The position numbers and the translations under genes are program-made. Of a stretch of 64,000 bases of DNA, positions 3,068 through 58,360 are shown piece by piece; positions within the stretch are counted from its first letter, which is position 1; every line of letters starts with the position of its first letter. The stretch is from assembly GCF_024158605.1 (NCBI RefSeq), contig NZ_JAMZGM010000005.1, positions 1-64,000 of the forward strand. Direction: 5' to 3'. This DNA is from Sebaldella sp. S0638 (GTDB lineage Bacteria > Fusobacteriota > Fusobacteriia > Fusobacteriales > Leptotrichiaceae). Below the pieces are notes generated by a model. It made no database searches, was not told the origin of the DNA, and saw only the letters and a list, made by a program, of their open reading frames with translations.

Positions 3068-3640
3068 ATGGAAAAAATTATTTGGAGAGTGGAATATACT
3101 TCACTTCCAAGAATAAAAAAATATTGTAAAAAGTGCGGAAGAAAAAGCGAATTTTTATCATCTAAATTATTTAGGGTAAATGCCAATCAGAAGAATCTCG
3201 ATGTATGGCTTATTTATAACTGCTCAAATTGCAAAACTACATGGAAACAAGAGTTATTTTCAAGAGTGAAACACAATTATTTTTCCAATGAAATACTTGA
3301 TAAATTTTCTGGAAATGATAGTGATTTAGCTCATTATTACACTATGGACTGTAATCATTTAGCAAAAGCAGGATTTGAAATATTGCCTCCGAGTTATACT
3401 TTAACAGGGAAACACATTGATATCTATACCAACAATGGTTTTAAGAATAATTTTGAAATACACCTGATATCGGATTATCAGTTTGATATTAAAGTAATAT
3501 CTATTTTGAAAGATAAACTGAGGATTTCTAACAGCCGGTTAGATTATTTAATTAAAAATAACAAGATTTTTTGTAATATGAATAAGAAAATTAAAAAATG
3601 TAAATTACAAAAAGAACAGATAATATATTTGACATTATAG
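3068..3640 (+). CDS. DUF1062 zinc-ribbon protein
   Basis: This 190-residue protein matches the DUF1062 family throughout its N-terminal half: 'LPRIKKYCKKCGRKSEF', then 'FRVNANQKNLDVWLIYNCSNCKTTW'. The two CxxC pairs (CKKCG and CSNCK) should form a zinc ribbon. The 'FRVNANxKxLDVWLIYxC' run is the family's most conserved block. The C-terminal half is less conserved and ends in a Lys-rich helix that may be an HTH-like segment. The family is cytosolic and its function is unknown. The ribosome site is AAAGGA about 9 bases before the ATG. The gene is monocistronic. Confidence 0.8.
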   Translation: MEKIIWRVEYTSLPRIKKYCKKCGRKSEFLSSKLFRVNANQKNLDVWLIYNCSNCKTTWKQELFSRVKHNYFSNEILDKFSGNDSDLAHYYTMDCNHLAKAGFEILPPSYTLTGKHIDIYTNNGFKNNFEIHLISDYQFDIKVISILKDKLRISNSRLDYLIKNNKIFCNMNKKIKKCKLQKEQIIYLTL

Positions 3641-21565: not shown

Positions 21566-21581
21566 AATCATAAAATAAAAA

Positions 21582-21617
21582 TGTTACTTCCGTCTGATGC
21601 ACGGAAGTAACTTTTTT
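21582..21617 (+). terminator. Intrinsic terminator of coaBC
   Basis: GTTACTTCCGT/ACGGAAGTAAC perfect 11-bp stem (21583-21593 with 21601-21611) and T6. Confidence 0.95.
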
Positions 21618-22365
21618 GATATTATCTATTATTCTAAGAAGGGGCTTAAGCAGCAGTCTTTTTATAAACTGCACTTACAAACCGAATACAATCTATTTTA
21701 AAAATCATTATGCTTATGTTACAATTCATTTTGTAAAACCGTTATTTTATTCCTTAAGTGCTGTGACTATAATTATTTATAGAATACAACTCTAATAAAT
21801 TAAATATGTCTAACTAAACAGTTTATTTTTATTTATTTAAAGTTTCCTGCAAGTGGCGGTTTTATAATTATATATTATGATGAAATTCTGAAGGTATAAT
21901 GCGGGTTTTATTACATATCAAAATTTAAAAATATTGCTAAAAACTTTTATTCCACTACAAATGTTTACTTTAATATACTGATCGCTATAAAAAATAATAC
22001 TAGATAAGTTAATATTTTAATTTTTAAGATTATAACAGATTAAAGCAAAAAAATCCGGCAGTTTTTATGGTTTGACAAAAATCAGCAGCATATGATTTTA
22101 AAGCAAATTGAAACAAAAAAATGTAAATATTAATACTATTTATTATATAAACATAATATTTTTATAACATTAAATATTATAAAACTATATTATATAAAAC
22201 ACTAAAATTGAAACTGAATTACTAAAAAAATGTTTTTATAAATAAAATCATTACAAACTGCTTTTTGCTTTTAATATAATCCGTTATATAGTGTTACATT
22301 TTACCAGAAGGCAGTTAAAATCAAAACTTTTGTTTCAAAGTACTCCTTTCTCTAAAATTTTTTAG
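21618..22365. other. Non-coding A/T-rich stretch left of the recombination sites
   Basis: No reading frame of note on either strand and no tRNA-like structure. The only notable element is a 16-base exact copy of the core of the recombination sites described at 22366, found at 21864-21879. Confidence 0.5.
21864..21879. repeat. Third, degenerate copy of the dif-like core
   Basis: ATAATTATATATTATG is identical to the central 16 bases of the site at 22366-22391. The outer arms differ (GGTTTT on the left, ATGAAA on the right), so only the right arm keeps a TTATG-plus-A/T pattern. In such A/T-rich DNA a chance match of 16 bases is unlikely but not impossible. Confidence 0.4.
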
Positions 22366-22391
22366 GTTAACATAATTATATATTATGTTAA
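22366..22391 (+). repeat. Left inverted, dif-like recombination site (IRL)
   Basis: A 26-bp near-palindrome with arms GTTAACATAA and TTATGTTAA around an asymmetric A/T centre (TTATATA). Its reverse complement is found without mismatch at 22603-22628. The arm TTATGTTAA is the same as the conserved half-site of bacterial dif sequences, the substrate of Xer-type tyrosine recombinases, and a recombinase gene begins 490 bases downstream. Confidence 0.75.
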
Positions 22392-22412
22392 TCTAAGCAA
22401 AGGAATTAATAC

Positions 22413-22442
22413 TTGACAAATTAAATGATAAAATTATACAAT
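22413..22442 (+). promoter_or_regulatory. Promoter inside the potentially invertible segment
   Basis: TTGACA (22413-22418) with TATACA (22435-22440, 16-base spacer) or TACAAT (22437-22442, 18-base spacer). It currently reads rightward toward the recombinase gene. A weak hairpin (CCTTAA/TTAGGG near 22564-22578) followed by T-rich DNA may limit read-through. Confidence 0.5.
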
Positions 22443-22602
22443 ATTGTAGATATAAAAAGTTTTGATTTTTGGATTGATATTTTTGGTAAAAGTTTATAAA
22501 TTAACAAATGAGTATAATTGCAAAACAATTAAAAAGTATAGTTGATAAGCTAGAAATATTTTTCCTTAAAATTTAGGGCTTTTTATTTTTTATCTAAATG
22601 AG

Positions 22603-22628
22603 TTAACATAATATATAATTATGTTAAC
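22603..22628 (-). repeat. Right inverted, dif-like recombination site (IRR)
   Basis: Exact inverted copy of the 26-bp site at 22366-22391; the centre reads TATATAA here against TTATATA there, so the two sites are in opposite orientation and bracket 211 bp. A TATAAT box at 22647-22652 lies 17 bases beyond TTAACT (22624-22629), so a second promoter would have its -35 inside this site. Confidence 0.75.
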
Positions 22629-22879
22629 TATTTTGTAGTTTTGTGTTATAATCATAAAATAAGGCTTTAGAGAAAATATTAATCAATTAATACTAAAAAA
22701 AGTTTTTTCTCAAAAAACAAGGAAAAAATTTCTGAAACTATTTAAATTAAAGAGTTTGAAATACTTTTTACGGGTATAAAGTTTTTCAAAATAATATGGA
22801 ATAAAATAATTATAATAGTGTAATCTGAGTTAAACAATTTTAATTATGAAAATAACACAATAGCAAGGGATAAAAAATT

Positions 22880-23671
22880 ATGGATAAAATTATTGAAGAT
22901 TATAAAATAACCCTTCAGAGGAAATTTTTTTCACAGACTACTATTAACGCCTATATAACAGATATTACAAAATTTTTAGAATTTCTCCCGGAACAGAATC
23001 TGGAAGTGATTCCAATAGAAATAATGAATTACAGAAAATATATGAAAGAGAATTATAAAGTCAGCACTGTAAACAGGAAAATAACAACCCTGAATAATTT
23101 TTTCAGGAGTCTGGATATAGATGTGAGATTAAAAGTGGAGAGAGTGCATAAAAGGAGAATTAAAGATGATTTTCTCACAGATAAGGAGTATAGAAGGCTG
23201 CTGAAATTTGCTATTAACGAAAAAATCAGGATAACTATGATAATTCTGGCAAATACCGGAGTAAGGGTGTCAGAACTAAAGTATATTCAGGTGGAAAATC
23301 TTAAAACAGGCGTGGTAGAAATAGAAAATAAAGGAAAAATAAGAACTATAATACTTTCAAAAAATCTGATAAATACACTAAAAAAATATTGCAGGGAGTA
23401 TAATATAAAAAAGGGAAGCATAATCGGAGTAAGCAGAATATATGTACACAATTCGCTGAAACGAAGTGCTGCCAATGCCCGGGGCGGATTAAGGAAAAGC
23501 AAGGTACATGCACATGCCTTCAGACATTTATTCGCAGTGCAGTTTTTGAAAAAGAATAATAATATAGCGGCACTCGCAGATATACTGGGTCATTCATCGC
23601 TGGAGACCACACGGATATACACAAGTCTGAATAAAAGACAGTTTCAGGAGATGCTGGAGGATATAATATAA
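22880..23671 (+). CDS. Tyrosine recombinase/integrase (Xer-like)
   Basis: 263 residues. The N-terminal SAM-like core-binding domain is at 1-85 ('SQTTINAYITDITKFLEFL', 'STVNRKITTLNNFFR'). The catalytic domain is at 95-263, with all key residues visible: Arg129 (NTGVRVSEL), a Lys near 153 in the beta-hairpin, His212 and Arg215 (HAFRHLFA), His238 (LGHSS) and Tyr247 (RIYTSL). It is therefore probably active. It is shorter than XerC/XerD (about 300 residues) and resembles stand-alone recombinases. The two inverted dif-like sites upstream are the obvious substrates. The ribosome site AAGGGA precedes ATG 22880, and a terminator follows. Roles in DNA inversion, dimer resolution or element mobility are all possible. 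Confidence 0.9.
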   Translation: MDKIIEDYKITLQRKFFSQTTINAYITDITKFLEFLPEQNLEVIPIEIMNYRKYMKENYKVSTVNRKITTLNNFFRSLDIDVRLKVERVHKRRIKDDFLTDKEYRRLLKFAINEKIRITMIILANTGVRVSELKYIQVENLKTGVVEIENKGKIRTIILSKNLINTLKKYCREYNIKKGSIIGVSRIYVHNSLKRSAANARGGLRKSKVHAHAFRHLFAVQFLKKNNNIAALADILGHSSLETTRIYTSLNKRQFQEMLEDII

Positions 23672-51010: not shown

Positions 51011-54000
51011 TTGGATATATTAAGGAAAGGAAACATGATATTTATGATGAAAAATAAAGATAAACTATTATTATTTTTAGCATTGAACGCAATTGCACCT
51101 TTTGCAAATGCAGAATCAAAATATGACAAATTGTATGATAAGATGATTAAGAATATAAATGAGGAAAAATCTAATGAAGATTCGTATAATTTATTGACTC
51201 GAATACTCAATCAAAGGAATAAAGAACTAAAAGATCTGTACATGCAGAGCGATTATGTAGTAAAACCGGAGTATTTAGAATGGCAGGTATTTTTCAGCGG
51301 TTTATACAGTAATGTAAAAAGAGGAGATAACACGCTGGAGAATGCGGAGTATTACTCTATGCCCAAAACAAGCATGGGAATAAATACAATTGAGAAAGGT
51401 CTGTATAATTCTATTATGAGCAGTGGTGTAAGTAATGAAACACTGGAAATGATATTAAACGGAAATACAGATGCTTATAATAACCTTACTGAGGAACAAA
51501 AAGCGATAGTATCCGGTATTTTTGGAGGAAGCGGAGTAAAAGGAAACTTTAAACCGTTCCAGAATTTGCAGGATAATAAAGTAATAGATCTGGGAATAAA
51601 TATGAAGATTAACGGACCAACAAAGAATATATCCGATATAAATATTTCTGGAATGAATGTTCCTTCAATAAATTTGAATCAGCAGTCATTTGATGCACCA
51701 GATGTATTAAATGTGCCTGAAATAGAGATACTTTCATTTAATCCGACTATACCGCATATAACAACATTGAATTTTAATTCTATACCTGTACTTACTCTAA
51801 ATGGTACAGGAGGAGGAAACGGAGGAACAACAGGTTTCTTCCCTTATGGAGATGACAGCGGATCAAATTCGATAATATCACAAATGGATATTACAAGCGG
51901 AACTATAAATGTAAGAACAAATATTTCTTCACAAGTCGGTTGGTCAACTACAAATCCGGGATTTTATGACTATACCTTAGATAATGTAATAGGGGCTCCG
52001 TCGGCTGGTCTTGAGTATAATCAAAGAGGGACTTATGATCCTATATTAGGAACATGGACTTATGAGGATGCAGTACTTCCATCGGGAATATACACAGACT
52101 CTATTAATAATAATCCGCAGGGTTATACAAATCAGGTACAGGGATTATTTAAAGTAATAGATAACCCTATAACAAGATATGGAACTGCCGGCGGGAACGT
52201 TAATGATCTGAAAGTAACATTAGAGGGCGATGTAGTAGATGCTGATTATCTGGTTCAGATACTTCACTATGATGAACACTACAGCGGTATGCAGGATCCT
52301 GTAACAGGAGAATGGAAAAACTATACTCTTGACGAGCTTGAAGAAAGAAACTGGATCACAGCTGCTGAAAAAGCAGAATTAGGAAGCAAGTTTCTGGACA
52401 CTACACTAGGACATACTACAGATAACAGATGGTTTCAGTATGTAGAAAACAACAGTTCATGGAATCTGAAAGGTTCAAATGTCGTAGCTGTAAATATTCA
52501 GGCTCACAGCGGATATCAGGATGCCAATAGTATATTTATGAACAGAGGAGAAATAATAGGACTGAATGAAGCAAGTACTGTTAATAATCTTGTAGGAAAA
52601 CAGGTTGCCTTTATGTTCACGGAAGGTGCGAGCCAGAGAAAACAAGAAGGTTTTGATAATACAGGACTGATAGAAATGAGAGCGCCTGAAAGTGTACTAT
52701 TTTTAATGACAAATAATGCATATTCATATAATTACAGCGAATCACAAGACAGCAATGGAAATCATTATATAGATGAAAATCCGGGAAAACATATATTAAT
52801 GAATAACGGCGATATGAAACTTTATGGAAATAATAATATAGGGGTGTATACACACAATGCCCCCCAGTTAGGTAAATATGAATCGGGATATTACTATTCA
52901 AATGGAACTTGGAATACATCAAAATCAATAAACAGTGGTTTGCAGAGAACAGAAATCAGATTATATAATCCTATAACTGTACTCGGAGATCAGAGTATAG
53001 GTGTAGATATAGAAAGAGAACTTAATTTTGCCAATTCTAAAATAAAGGTAGATGTGGGAACAGAAGATCCAAGACAGGCTGCGGCAAGCTCTACAGGGGT
53101 GGGCGGACTTGAAAACAGCGGTAATAGTGCCGGAGGAAATTCTGCATATACAGACAGTTCCGCAGGGATATATGTAAATATGACTAGTAATGTAATAAAT
53201 TATAATAAATATATAGTCGATCAGATTAATCCAGCAAATAATGTAAATATAGGCGGAACAATGGTGGATAATGTCCAGTTTACTCTGTCAGACTATCTTC
53301 TGAATATTGGTAATTACTCAAGAGGAGGAGTAGGTTTAAGGGTAGAAGAGTACGGGGATGTTATTTTAGGAAATTCATCAGACTCTACTACAAACCATGA
53401 AATAAACCTTTTAGCTGGCAGTGAAGGAAATGCAGGAATATACATACGCGGATCTAATTCATCAACAATAACATATGAACCGGATCCGATCTGGAATCCG
53501 GGATATACAGAAACTATTGATGTATTAGGATTCATAGGGTCAAGAGTAGTAACTGACGGCATGACAATGAATATTGACGGAAATAAACAGGTAGGAGTCC
53601 AGCTGGAAGAATACGGATATTTTTACCATAAAAACGGAACTATAAATGTAAATGGAACAAACAATACAGGAATTGCAGTAAAGCTAAGAGGTACAGGAGA
53701 AGTAAGCGATACTGGAACGCTGGCAGTTTCGGCCGGGAATCTGGGTGTATATAATGAAAGTACATTTAATATGACAGGCGGAAGCATAACAGCAAGCGGA
53801 ACAGAAGCTGTAGGAGTATACAGTGAGATAAATAACACTGATACCAACCTGAGCGGCGGAACTATAAAAGCTGAAAACGGCGGAATAGGACTCTATGCAG
53901 GTGCTAATTCAACAATAAATCTTAGTGAAGGAGTAAACTTAGTAGCCGGGAATAAAGGATTATTATTCTATAACTATGACGGCGGTATTGCTTCTGGAAA

Positions 54001-57000
54001 ATACAGTGTAACAGGAAATGTAAAAGCTACAGTGGAAGAAGGCGGAATAGCTTTCTATCTGAAATACGGAACAAACCTTGAAAACTACCTGAATACTTCA
54101 TTTACAGGGATATCAGGAGGAAGACTGGGATTAACAATGAAATCAGGGTCTATACTGTATATGCTTGAAGGAACAGGAAGTACACTGTCACTTACAACTC
54201 TTGACGGAATGGTTACACCTGTAATGGATCTGGCAAATAACGTAAGTATAAATACAGACAGTGCAGCTGACTATATACCGATATCTATGAATAAAGGTGC
54301 ATTAATACTGGACAGAGACATTAATATGGACGGAAATGATCTTTATGAAAAAGCTCAGTTTGCCTTATTGTCAGTGACACTGAACAGCGGAAAAACAATG
54401 ACTGGAAATCTGGAAAAACAAATAGGAATTGCACAGAGAAACTACGCAGGAAGTTCTGGAAGAAATGAAATAACACTAAAAAATGACGGATCAATAATTT
54501 TTAGCGGGGAAAAAGCCGTAGGAATGGCCGCTGATTATGGTCATATAGTAAATAATAATATAATAAAAACTACAGGAAATGATTCAGTAGGAATATATTC
54601 AGCTAACGGGTCGGTAACTGAAAATAACGGTGAGATAACAATTGCCGGTAATAACACAGCAGGAATATACGGGGCTAACTATCTTGACGGTATAACGACT
54701 TCAGTAGGTTTAGGTTATGGAGATGACAAAATCAATATAACAAATGCCGGTAAAGTAACAGCTGCAGGGCCGGGAAGAGTTTACGGCATATATGCTTCAA
54801 ACAGAACAGGAACACAGGGAGATAATACAGTAACGCTTAACAGCGGATCAGATATAAATCTTCAAAATTCATCAGGCGGAATAGGAGTGTATATAAATAA
54901 CGGAATTCTTAACGGAACGGGTGTACTCAGCGTAGGTTCCGACAGTATTGGAATATATGCTAAAGACAGTACGGTAAATCTTTCAGGATTAACTTTAAAT
55001 ATGACTGGAAATAACATACTAGGTTTCTATCTTGACGGAAATACAAACTTTAACGGTTCGGGGAATATAAATATTTCAGGAAATAATATAGCTGTGTTTA
55101 ACATATTATCAAACGGAACATTTAACCAGAACTTTAATATATCATCAACAGCAGGTTCTACATATACAATAGGAAATGTAAAGAACGGAACATTCCATTA
55201 TAATGGTACTGCTGATCTGGCAAGTAACGGAAGCCTTATAAACGGAAAAGATTCGGCTGTGCTTCTTGATACAGGTTCAACACTGGTGTCAACAGGTGAT
55301 AATGTAATAGGTGCTGTGCTTGAGGGGCAGTATAATTCCACACTTCCAGGAGGATTTACATCAGGAATAGATGCTGAAAACAGAGGTACAATGGTACTTG
55401 GAAATAACTCGGCCGGTCTGTACGGAAGCAACGGAACAAGACTGAAAAATATTGGTTCAATATCACTGGGTGACAGCTCTATGGGACTTCATACAAATGG
55501 AATTGGTTCAAGTGCGTCAAATAACGGGAATATAGCATTAGGAAATCTGTCTGTAGGGATTTACGGGCAAAACAGCACAAATCTTGAAAACCTGTCAAAT
55601 GGTGTAATTACAGGAAGTGGAAGAGAGACTGTAGGAATTTATGCTGACGGTTCAGCTCCTCTGACAATAGCAAATGACGGAAGAATAGAATTGAGCGGGG
55701 ATAAATCAATGGGGATTTATTCAAAAGCTGACGGAGGAACATCTGTTACTAATAACGGATCAGTGATAATAGGAAACTCATCTGATAATAATAATCCGGG
55801 AGTAGGTATTTACAGCGGAAACTTAGCCGATACAGTAATAAATAACGGAACAGTATCAGCTGGAAATTCATCTGTAGGTATATATATAAACGGAGGAACT
55901 TTAAATCAGAATAATATTGTTAATATAGGTGATAACGGAACAGGAATATACGCAGCAGGAGGAACGGTAAACTTAAATGCCGGCTCATCATTAAATGTAG
56001 CGAATAATCAGTCAATAGGTGTTTATGCATTAAACGGAACAAATGTATCAAACAGCGGAATAATGACACTTGGAAATAACAGTTTCGGCTATGTGCTTAG
56101 ATCAGGTTCAGTACTCACAAATAATGCTGATGTAACATCGGGTGACGGAAGTATTGTTGTCTTTGGAGACGGTGCAGGAAATATAGTAAATAACAATTCT
56201 GTTACACTGGGCGGATCAAACGGAGTAGCATTTTACACAGTAAACGGAGGAAATATACAGAATGGCGGAGATCTAACAGGGACAGCCGGAACAGCAAATG
56301 TAGGTATTTATAATGAAAACGGAATAATTAACAATACAGGTAAAATACGTGTAGGAGATTCTGTAATCAGGGATTTTGAAGATTCAGCAAAGAACAGTTA
56401 TGCCATAGCAATATACGGGGACAAAACAGGAATAACAAATACAGGAGATATAGAACTCGGATATTACGGAGTGGGAATTTACAGTAAGGATAATAAAGAA
56501 TCAGGACTTCCGACTGTAAACTCAGGTAAAATAACTTCAAGTTCAGAAGGTGCCATTGGTATATTCGTAGAAAACGGAGTGCTTCAAAATACAGGAGATA
56601 TAGAACTTTCAGGAGATAATTCAATAGGAATTTATGCAAATAAAAAAGCAGAGATCAATAACAGCGGAACTATAATAATGGGCGGTAATGATTCAACAGC
56701 AATTTATATGAATATATTATCAACATTAAATAATACAGGTACTATCTACATAAACGGAAATGACAGCGAAGGAATAATCATGAAAGGCGGATCACAAATC
56801 CTGAATCAGGGAACAATAAATATTGGAGCCGGAGTAAGCGGTTCGGTTATGGTCTCATACGGGGAAACAAGTTATCCGGTACCGAGTATTATAAATGCAG
56901 GAGTAATAAATGTATCAGAGAATTTTGAGTTAAAAGGAATAGATATTTCTATAAAAGTAAATCCTGATACAATAACTGAAGCAACAGTAACTGAAGATCT

Positions 57001-58360
57001 CGGAGCATCATTTGTATCAGATGCAGTACAGTTCAATGCACCATCATTTAATACAACAGAGCCTATTGGAATACTGGGAGGATTCGCAGAAGGAACACAT
57101 GCGGAAGTTTATAAATTCAAAGATGTATTTAATCCTATGACAACAGGAGGAGGACCGGATTCAGGACTTGTAAAAGTAAGAAGTAAGTCACTAACATGGT
57201 CTGCAACCCCTGTATTAAATGAAAGAGGAAATGTAGATATATGGATGCAGAAAATACCGTATGATAACTTTACAAGCGGATTATGGTATCAGGATTTCGG
57301 ACTTGCACTTGATACAAAATATGTAGGTTCAACAGGAAATATGGGTCGTATATTTGATAAAATAGATCTTATAGAAACAGAAATGGATTTTAGAAAGACT
57401 ATGTCAAGTCTCGCAGGAGATATATATTCAAATATGAATCAAAGAGAACAGACAATAGCGGATATATTTGAAGATTCACTGGGAATACTGCAAAATTCAA
57501 AAAATAATACTAAAGAAAATGTAAAGGTAAATGTAATTGCCGGAACAGGTAAATTAAAAGAAGATACAGAAGGGGTTCTCGGATATGATTATACTTCTAC
57601 AGGAGTACAACTTTTGAGAGAAGTAGAGAGAACATATAAACATACATTCGGATACTCACTGGGATATCTTCATACAGGATTTGAATTCACAGACAGTAAT
57701 GACAGTGAGGAAAAAGTAGATACAATTCAGTTAGGATTACATAATAAATATAATACAGATAACTGGATATTGAAAAATGATCTTACTGGAAGAGTAAGTT
57801 TCCATAATATGGAAAGAAACATAGACTGGACACATTCAGGAAAATCTGAAATGACAGCAAGATATGAAAGCTACAGTCTGACAAGTGACAATATACTCGG
57901 AAAAGAACTGGAGCTTGGAAAAAGAGCAAGTATAATGCCTTATGGAGGAGTTAAGGTAATGTACGGTGTAAGACCGACATTTAGTGAAAAAGGTCTTGAA
58001 GCACTGGAAGTAGACGGTAATGACGCATGGAGCGTAAAGCCGAAAGCAGGAGTGGAACTAAAAGGGGAATATCCTTTAGGAAGCAAAGAAAGCTGGAAGC
58101 TGAAAGGGTCTCTTGATTTATCATATGAGTACGAACTTGCTGACTTTAATGAAAGAGAATATGCACGACTTACAGCAGCGGAAGATTCTTATCATAAACT
58201 GGCAAAGCCGGAAGATGAAAAAGGAGCTTTCAGAACAAAAGCCACATTAGGAGTGGAAGTAGAAGACAGATACGGAGTATTCCTGACTGGGGAATATAAA
58301 ACAGGTGATGTAGGAAAAGATGACTACAGAGCAGGAATTAACCTAAAAGCAGTATTTTAG
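51011..58360 (+). CDS. Giant autotransporter adhesin (type Va)
   Basis: About 2440 residues. TTG 51011 has a strong AAGGAG site, but ATG 51035 or 51044/51047 gives a cleaner signal peptide (MKNKDKLLLFLALNAIAPFANA). Residues 30-75 are charged and helix-forming; 80-270 are low-complexity and Asn-rich. The passenger from about 480 to 1990 is a beta-helix of many 18-22-residue units of the form 'GNNSVGIYA.NGT..NNSGTI..G'. The C-terminal 300 residues are the beta-barrel autotransporter domain, ending in 'INLKAVF' with a final Phe, as in outer-membrane barrels. It would be secreted through its own barrel and displayed as an adhesin, like the large fusobacterial autotransporters. The receptor is unknown. 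Confidence 0.93.
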   Translation: MDILRKGNMIFMMKNKDKLLLFLALNAIAPFANAESKYDKLYDKMIKNINEEKSNEDSYNLLTRILNQRNKELKDLYMQSDYVVKPEYLEWQVFFSGLYSNVKRGDNTLENAEYYSMPKTSMGINTIEKGLYNSIMSSGVSNETLEMILNGNTDAYNNLTEEQKAIVSGIFGGSGVKGNFKPFQNLQDNKVIDLGINMKINGPTKNISDINISGMNVPSINLNQQSFDAPDVLNVPEIEILSFNPTIPHITTLNFNSIPVLTLNGTGGGNGGTTGFFPYGDDSGSNSIISQMDITSGTINVRTNISSQVGWSTTNPGFYDYTLDNVIGAPSAGLEYNQRGTYDPILGTWTYEDAVLPSGIYTDSINNNPQGYTNQVQGLFKVIDNPITRYGTAGGNVNDLKVTLEGDVVDADYLVQILHYDEHYSGMQDPVTGEWKNYTLDELEERNWITAAEKAELGSKFLDTTLGHTTDNRWFQYVENNSSWNLKGSNVVAVNIQAHSGYQDANSIFMNRGEIIGLNEASTVNNLVGKQVAFMFTEGASQRKQEGFDNTGLIEMRAPESVLFLMTNNAYSYNYSESQDSNGNHYIDENPGKHILMNNGDMKLYGNNNIGVYTHNAPQLGKYESGYYYSNGTWNTSKSINSGLQRTEIRLYNPITVLGDQSIGVDIERELNFANSKIKVDVGTEDPRQAAASSTGVGGLENSGNSAGGNSAYTDSSAGIYVNMTSNVINYNKYIVDQINPANNVNIGGTMVDNVQFTLSDYLLNIGNYSRGGVGLRVEEYGDVILGNSSDSTTNHEINLLAGSEGNAGIYIRGSNSSTITYEPDPIWNPGYTETIDVLGFIGSRVVTDGMTMNIDGNKQVGVQLEEYGYFYHKNGTINVNGTNNTGIAVKLRGTGEVSDTGTLAVSAGNLGVYNESTFNMTGGSITASGTEAVGVYSEINNTDTNLSGGTIKAENGGIGLYAGANSTINLSEGVNLVAGNKGLLFYNYDGGIASGKYSVTGNVKATVEEGGIAFYLKYGTNLENYLNTSFTGISGGRLGLTMKSGSILYMLEGTGSTLSLTTLDGMVTPVMDLANNVSINTDSAADYIPISMNKGALILDRDINMDGNDLYEKAQFALLSVTLNSGKTMTGNLEKQIGIAQRNYAGSSGRNEITLKNDGSIIFSGEKAVGMAADYGHIVNNNIIKTTGNDSVGIYSANGSVTENNGEITIAGNNTAGIYGANYLDGITTSVGLGYGDDKINITNAGKVTAAGPGRVYGIYASNRTGTQGDNTVTLNSGSDINLQNSSGGIGVYINNGILNGTGVLSVGSDSIGIYAKDSTVNLSGLTLNMTGNNILGFYLDGNTNFNGSGNINISGNNIAVFNILSNGTFNQNFNISSTAGSTYTIGNVKNGTFHYNGTADLASNGSLINGKDSAVLLDTGSTLVSTGDNVIGAVLEGQYNSTLPGGFTSGIDAENRGTMVLGNNSAGLYGSNGTRLKNIGSISLGDSSMGLHTNGIGSSASNNGNIALGNLSVGIYGQNSTNLENLSNGVITGSGRETVGIYADGSAPLTIANDGRIELSGDKSMGIYSKADGGTSVTNNGSVIIGNSSDNNNPGVGIYSGNLADTVINNGTVSAGNSSVGIYINGGTLNQNNIVNIGDNGTGIYAAGGTVNLNAGSSLNVANNQSIGVYALNGTNVSNSGIMTLGNNSFGYVLRSGSVLTNNADVTSGDGSIVVFGDGAGNIVNNNSVTLGGSNGVAFYTVNGGNIQNGGDLTGTAGTANVGIYNENGIINNTGKIRVGDSVIRDFEDSAKNSYAIAIYGDKTGITNTGDIELGYYGVGIYSKDNKESGLPTVNSGKITSSSEGAIGIFVENGVLQNTGDIELSGDNSIGIYANKKAEINNSGTIIMGGNDSTAIYMNILSTLNNTGTIYINGNDSEGIIMKGGSQILNQGTINIGAGVSGSVMVSYGETSYPVPSIINAGVINVSENFELKGIDISIKVNPDTITEATVTEDLGASFVSDAVQFNAPSFNTTEPIGILGGFAEGTHAEVYKFKDVFNPMTTGGGPDSGLVKVRSKSLTWSATPVLNERGNVDIWMQKIPYDNFTSGLWYQDFGLALDTKYVGSTGNMGRIFDKIDLIETEMDFRKTMSSLAGDIYSNMNQREQTIADIFEDSLGILQNSKNNTKENVKVNVIAGTGKLKEDTEGVLGYDYTSTGVQLLREVERTYKHTFGYSLGYLHTGFEFTDSNDSEEKVDTIQLGLHNKYNTDNWILKNDLTGRVSFHNMERNIDWTHSGKSEMTARYESYSLTSDNILGKELELGKRASIMPYGGVKVMYGVRPTFSEKGLEALEVDGNDAWSVKPKAGVELKGEYPLGSKESWKLKGSLDLSYEYELADFNEREYARLTAAEDSYHKLAKPEDEKGAFRTKATLGVEVEDRYGVFLTGEYKTGDVGKDDYRAGINLKAVF

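Follow-up and report, generated by a model that had tools for sequence, protein, structure and literature searches.

A tyrosine recombinase gene and a pair of opposed dif-like sites in Sebaldella sp. S0638 probably form a DNA inversion switch, in which the recombinase would flip a 209-bp promoter segment and thereby change the transcription of its own gene, a reading to which we give about two chances in three. The module lies in a stretch of 64,000 nucleotides, referred to here as the window (Table 1). Its anatomy is conserved in Sebaldella termitidis, paired sites recur among related recombinases, and the segment between the sites is reversed between two of these relatives. Inversion by the window recombinase is, taken by itself, likely.

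Table 1. Coordinates of the module and its surroundings in the window
Feature	Position	Strand	Remarks
Left part of the coaBC-alcohol dehydrogenase interval	21612..22365	.	754 bp, no gene seen
Third, degenerate site core	21864-21878	+	ATAATTATATATTAT, without outer arms; kept in S. termitidis
Conserved left flank	22251..22365	-	95/111 identical in S. termitidis, 5 gap columns
Left recombination site	22366..22392	+	27 bp, GTTAACATAAT-TATAT-ATTATGTTAAT; 26/27 identical in S. termitidis
Predicted invertible segment between the sites	22393..22601	.	209 bp; 181/209 against S. termitidis, gap-free, same orientation
Promoter-like site in the segment	22413..22442	+	TTGACA-18-TACAAT (11/12); faces the recombinase as sequenced; same in S. 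termitidis
Predicted panhandle RNA from the segment promoter	22452..22586	+	5' and 3' parts pair, then U-run; z -2.84 and -1.63
Right recombination site, inverted copy	22602..22628	-	27 bp, perfect 11-5-11 arms; 27/27 in S. termitidis
Promoter-like site of the recombinase gene	22624..22652	+	TTAACT-17-TATAAT, TG before -10; overlaps right site
Tyrosine recombinase, PsrA/XerA-like, 263 aa	22880..23671	+	Intact; starts 251 bases right of the right site

Two opposed sites and an intact recombinase gene

The initial annotation had described two 26-bp sites as exact reverse complements with 211 bp between them, asymmetric centres pointing in opposite directions and a complete tyrosine recombinase to the right, and each of these observations was borne out. 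The copies at 22366-22391 and 22603-22628 match at 100% across a gap of 211 nt and are the only zero-mismatch places in the 4.27-Mb genome, with two further places at 3 mismatches. In 300 first-order Markov shuffles of the region 21566-22880 (gap 30-500), exact inverted repeats reached 18 bp against the 26 bp observed. Read as 11-5-11, the left site has arms that differ at a single position at the inner end of the site, and the centres are TATAT on the left and ATATA on the right. At its outer end the right site overlaps TTAACT (22624-22629), a -35-like box belonging to the recombinase gene. The third core farther left could be a decayed or cryptic site. A separate 15-bp exact inverted repeat, AAAATCAAAACTTTT, is found at 22317-22331 and 22455-22469 and is largely kept in S. 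termitidis; since one arm lies outside the segment and the other inside, a flip would convert it from an inverted to a direct repeat.

The recombinase has all five of the residues R129, H212, R215, H238 and Y247 and matches the Pfam Phage_integrase family (E=1.5e-19). It does not reach the cut-off of any curated NCBIfam model; XerA_Arch scores best, with 138.7 bits against 220. An integron attC/attI reading was rejected by eye because both sites are full two-arm palindromes, and the protein scores 73 bits against an integron-integrase cut-off of 265. The module's neighbours, which we take from their translations to be coaBC and an alcohol dehydrogenase gene, make this a non-hsdS locus. Elsewhere in the window, an open frame of 2449 aa runs from 51011 to 58360 (+).

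Conservation in Sebaldella and the alternative of resolution

The source genome belongs to the Leptotrichiaceae, in the same genus as S. termitidis ATCC 33386 (G026), and recombinases at least 77% identical were found in four of 96 genomes of the order (G000, G003, G025 and G026). A search of relatives for the site pair beside the recombinase, as the initial annotation had suggested, found it in S. termitidis at 2.700 Mb, in the same place and orientation, next to an 85%-identical recombinase. The two species agree at 53 of 54 site positions, 181 of 209 segment positions and 48 of 52 positions of the right flank (22629-22680), and the stretch 22000-22250 matches at 130 of 215 with 46 gap columns; the sites are thus better conserved than either the segment or that stretch. 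These two loci are the complete ones known, and both are in one and the same orientation. The G025 recombinase is 88% identical, on a contig that begins inside the gene. In G024, of the same genus, the two neighbour genes are adjacent: the parts that match are separated by 181 bases, and the module is absent.

The initial annotation had also offered a self-contained Xer module like XerS/difSL or XerH/difH, that is, chromosome dimer resolution by a single recombinase. A site does adjoin the gene, and the arms resemble the XerD arm of dif, which reads TTATGTTAA. The module, however, has two inverted sites, and GC skew in the window shows no lasting flip, being positive throughout but for one 2-kb step. 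In S. termitidis the skew flips at 2.352 Mb, 350 kb from the module, and a dif-like match at 2,350,369 sits at that flip. This match is one of the two best-scoring in a scan of stretches between 2.31 and 2.75 Mb, the equal-scoring one being at 2,460,382. The 23-bp core of this match recurs without mismatch in the window's genome (C57:907-929). Of the five genomes searched, three carry the core (exact in G000 and G026, one mismatch in G003); it was not found in G024 or G025, neither of which is 90% complete. Nor does the recombinase appear to stand in for XerC and XerD, as the window's genome has 10 PF00589 matches, and among them are two long Xer-type proteins (307 and 312 aa), which a tree places on a separate branch from the window recombinase. 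XerS and XerH are stand-alone recombinases beside a dif-like site, as described in PMC5357621, and act at one terminus site, with 354-362 aa and one site each against 263 aa and two opposed sites in Sebaldella. Skew, the separate dif-like site, the other Xer genes and the module-free G024 leave this reading a negligible chance, and we regard it as ruled out.

Related recombinases on plasmids raise a different alternative. S. termitidis has a second recombinase copy, at 42-44% identity, on plasmid pSTERM02, which is identical letter for letter to the third contig of G026. There a single imperfect site (2821-2847) precedes the gene by 230 bp and matches at 18 of 22 arm positions, against 15 at the next best place. 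The G003 recombinase, at 77-78% identity, is encoded on a 15-kb contig (JAGOWQ010000032.1) that starts inside the right site. This contig is probably a plasmid, since it encodes a ParA-like ATPase (AAA_31) and shows similarity below cut-off to a replication initiator and to UPF0137. It begins 4 bases short of the right site's right arm, within the predicted 5-bp centre, which is suggestive only as a trace of recombination, given a coverage of 8.5 and the fact that hairpins can break assemblies. The other end of the contig has no site half, and GTTAACATAAT was not found elsewhere in G003. As a side observation, this probable Leptotrichiaceae plasmid (L050, 1-15029) has iteron-like GTATGTTACTTGAA repeats, a subtilase with an AAA ATPase next to it, and two frames that are presumably ThiF-like. 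A plasmid origin of the module is plausible from the sequences of the pSTERM02 and G003 homologues.

The module might then be a captured plasmid resolution system of the Cre/lox type, with the second site serving as operator or accessory and with no inversion. The single imperfect site on pSTERM02, the ParA-like ATPase and possible replication initiator beside the G003 homologue, the overlap of the right site with the recombinase promoter-like site and the empty spot in G024 all fit such a history. Resolution of this type, however, uses a single site on a circular replicon and needs direct sites on a dimer, whereas the chromosome has two opposed sites whose identity extends through the centre, an arrangement that both species preserve, and the segment is reversed between two relatives that have opposed pairs. 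We consider this alternative unlikely.

Paired sites and a reversed segment in the recombinase family

Pairs of sites were sought at 43 loci of related recombinases, 31 from viral collections (L154-L184) and 12 from plasmid or phage records; the window clade, other Xer matches and G074, G089 and G095 stood outside this survey. A pair was defined as an exact inverted repeat with arms of 15 bp or more, a separation of 60-700 bp and a position within 1.3 kb of the gene. By this definition 13 of the 43 loci have an inverted pair, with gaps of 184-338 bp, where 0.15 would be expected; as L162 and L164 are identical, these amount to 12 distinct loci. Long hsdS repeats beyond 700 bp (L100, L072 and others) were not counted as pairs, and a 15-nt AT-rich inverted repeat in G074, with a gap of 180, would pass the length cut.

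The paired recombinases, from Clostridial plasmids (L097, L098, L099 and L124) and viral collections (L161-L165, L169-L171 and L179), are 33-36% identical to that of the window in the three cases aligned, and their gaps compare with 209-211 in the window. The arms ACATAAT and ATTATGT are common to the window sites and many of these relatives: ACATAAT-N4-ATTATGT sites occur in L098, L099, L124 and L161 and as one site of L165, near-matches in L162-L164, L169, L170 and L179, and a different sequence in L097 and L171. Unlike in the window, where the pair is 5' of the recombinase, it lies 3' in all 13 paired relatives, with a possible client beyond it in several. Promoter-like sites scoring at least 10/12 are present in eight of the 13 segments against 1.8 expected from shuffles, and three reach 11 (0.2 expected); the other five have no strong promoter. 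The genes past the far site include SPFH (L161), Wzz (L124), a GGDEF response regulator (L170), a tyrosine recombinase (L171), a ParB_N protein about 800 bp away (L163), a below-cut-off methyltransferase (L165) and an annotated S-layer homology protein (L097); those of L098 and L099 gave no family matches. In the Subdoligranulum plasmid of L124, three copies of the site (3317-3618; one forward, two inverted) precede the Wzz-type chain-length gene, and from this arrangement a three-site switch is possible there.

In a 39-row tree (L158, L159, L164 and L176-L178 being set aside as likely near-copies, L179 as a partial protein and L182-L184 as weak), the window, S. termitidis, the G003 contig and pSTERM02 form a clade. 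This clade falls within a 26-row group (95/92) together with subclades of 13 and 9 rows; the next group contains PsrA and other recombinases, several of which lie next to hsdS genes. Four rows of the 13-row subclade are Clostridial plasmids and the rest viral or phage-collection contigs; the pair is just 3' of the gene in 11 of the 13, L167 ends 60 bp after the match, and MT836497 (L128) is without a pair. The 9-row subclade consists of viral-collection contigs, with an inverted pair in 0 of 9. The paired-site label (13 rows, the window and S. termitidis included) requires 4 changes on the tree against a shuffled mean of 11.2. The unpaired subclade is nearest to the window clade in the 39-row tree, with weak support (86/70); an 18-row tree joins the window clade to the paired subclade (93/93). 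Given an unpaired nearest subclade and the single imperfect site of pSTERM02, pairing may have arisen separately in Sebaldella. An ancestral one-site state was considered and is unsupported, as no convincing ACATAAT/ATTATGT site lies within 900 bp of the gene in the unpaired viral relatives. Neither the window protein nor L099 picked up relatives in scans of viral contigs; the pSTERM02 protein found 3 and an alignment 28. Six viral contigs (L076-L081) have TTAACATAAT-N5-ATTATGTTAA sites and no relative of the recombinase in the DNA searched; these look like XerCD-type dif sites, and we assume that the contigs are probably phages using host XerCD.

An inversion is indicated by L162 and L179. 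Their flanks are collinear (88/119 left of the sites and 278/379 right), and the segment aligns only when reversed, at 128 of 181 positions with a score of 186, against 77.5 forward and 97 for the best of 200 shuffles. Since everything but the segment is collinear, at least one of the two has inverted. Among the four segments compared, no clear match in either orientation emerged from the remaining five pairings; the reversal is therefore a single case.

The initial annotation's statement that the combination matches no system it could name was too strong, as the module resembles PsrA-like and other invertible-segment systems, though without a separate client found. PsrA of Streptococcus belongs to the same wider recombinase family (30-31% identity, similar length), which also includes S. 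dysgalactiae psrA, annotated as a DNA invertase, and is likewise a stand-alone invertase beside its own inverted repeats. One paper reportedly found spnIII recombination to be independent of all known pneumococcal site-specific recombinases. The PsrA of S. pneumoniae inverts DNA in vitro (PMC7096588), and inversion by PsrA has also been shown by knockout (PMC4948785). PsrA shuffles coding parts of hsdS genes, acting in vivo on the 15-bp IR1 and in vitro also on repeats of 298 and 85 bp, whereas Sebaldella has a 209-bp non-coding segment, 27-bp dif-like sites and no type I restriction hsdS locus. The cwpV switch of Clostridioides difficile is similar in that a site-specific recombinase flips 195 bp lying between imperfect inverted repeats of 21 bp (PMC2784873); it differs in having its promoter outside the segment, cwpV as client and an unlinked recV. 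Taken together, family, arms, spacing and the reversed relatives favour the inversion switch that the initial annotation had set beside a self-contained Xer module, and the other Xer genes and the separate dif-like site count against the latter. Another familiar case is fimS, a promoter segment flipped by the linked tyrosine recombinases FimB and FimE; unlike Sebaldella it has short repeats, two recombinases and a separate client operon.

Promoter-like sites, possible clients and the proposed switch

The score of the promoter-like site in the segment was reached by 3% of 200 shuffles of the segment, and consensus promoter-like matches in the stretch scanned numbered 28 against 19.0 expected (sd 4.5). 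The interval 22602-22654, with the recombinase gene's own promoter-like site, is identical in S. termitidis; the G003 contig reads TTAACT-17-TATACT. Because this site overlaps the right recombination site, bound recombinase should repress it.

In the proposed switch, the recombinase would bind the arms of the two inverted dif-like sites and exchange strands in the 5-bp centres, flipping the segment. In the state sequenced, the segment promoter would fire at the recombinase gene and add to the gene's own promoter; recombinase bound at the right site would block the -35 box of the latter. Once flipped, the segment promoter would fire leftward into the 754-bp geneless stretch, and the two states would thus differ in making more or less recombinase. 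With the recombinase gene on the right and 754 bp without a gene on the left, the recombinase gene would be the only protein gene to have its transcription altered by a flip; the main reading presumes that no distant client or RNA function is involved. A stronger version of it is a client-free switch, drawn from a plasmid-borne family, in which a flippable promoter addressed to its own invertase gene and an autorepressed second promoter give a bistable memory: the high-recombinase state would tend to flip and the low-recombinase state would hold. We put this version forward tentatively and think it rather doubtful.

The left side was searched for a decayed client gene, and the three minus-strand frames checked had stops throughout and no long frame. 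One might thus suppose a relic, a once-active switch that has lost its client and is now functionless, consistent with the absence of a client gene and of long frames on the left. The recombinase, however, is intact with its catalytic residues and 85% identical in S. termitidis, and sites and promoter regions are more conserved than the surrounding stretches, which makes a relic quite improbable.

With no gene or readable frame on the left, the choice is between a switch that addresses nothing but its own recombinase and one that works through an RNA or a tiny peptide. Read leftward, the conserved flank has in both species a Shine-Dalgarno-like AGAAAGGAG followed by TTG AAA CAA AAG TTT TGA, a five-codon mini-frame that begins 28 bp from the left site. 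Open frames start 28-61 bp beyond the far site in L098, L124, L161, L165, L170 and L171, so the mini-frame is positioned where a client would start. Within the segment, a 22-aa frame, MSIIAKQLKSIVDKLEIFFLKI, at 22508-22576 (+) is amphipathic-looking and lacks a good ribosome site; its S. termitidis version is MSIIVKRLKSIVDKLKIFFLKN, differing at 4 of 22 residues. A panhandle RNA is predicted in both species.

An RNA or short peptide, whether from the leftward flank and mini-frame, from a small RNA of the segment or from the 22-aa frame, may therefore be the client of the switch, besides or instead of the recombinase. The left flank (95/111) and the gap-free segment are well kept while the stretch 22000-22250 drops to 130/215, both small frames are kept in the two species, and the z values of the panhandle fold (Table 1) point the same way. 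Against this, the four matches in an Rfam search for structured RNA are all under gathering scores, and the minus-strand fold of the left flank is hardly better than shuffles (z -0.75). Of the 45 window pairs of the panhandle, one is changed on both sides in S. termitidis, four on one side and eight are broken, which is weak support for the predicted RNA, and the 22-aa frame has the shortcomings given above. We hold such a client to be a real possibility, if somewhat short of an even chance.

In the open-licence papers searched, no description of the Sebaldella module was found. The analysis links a small family of recombinases with a recurring site, ACATAAT-N4/5-ATTATGT, and connects it with inversion, in Clostridial plasmids and probably also in Fusobacteriota, including Sebaldella itself. 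Switches of this recombinase family could therefore be predicted from sequence. The plasmid homologues hint at the source of the module, and if it is true that the module feeds back only on its recombinase, it would be a natural minimal toggle.
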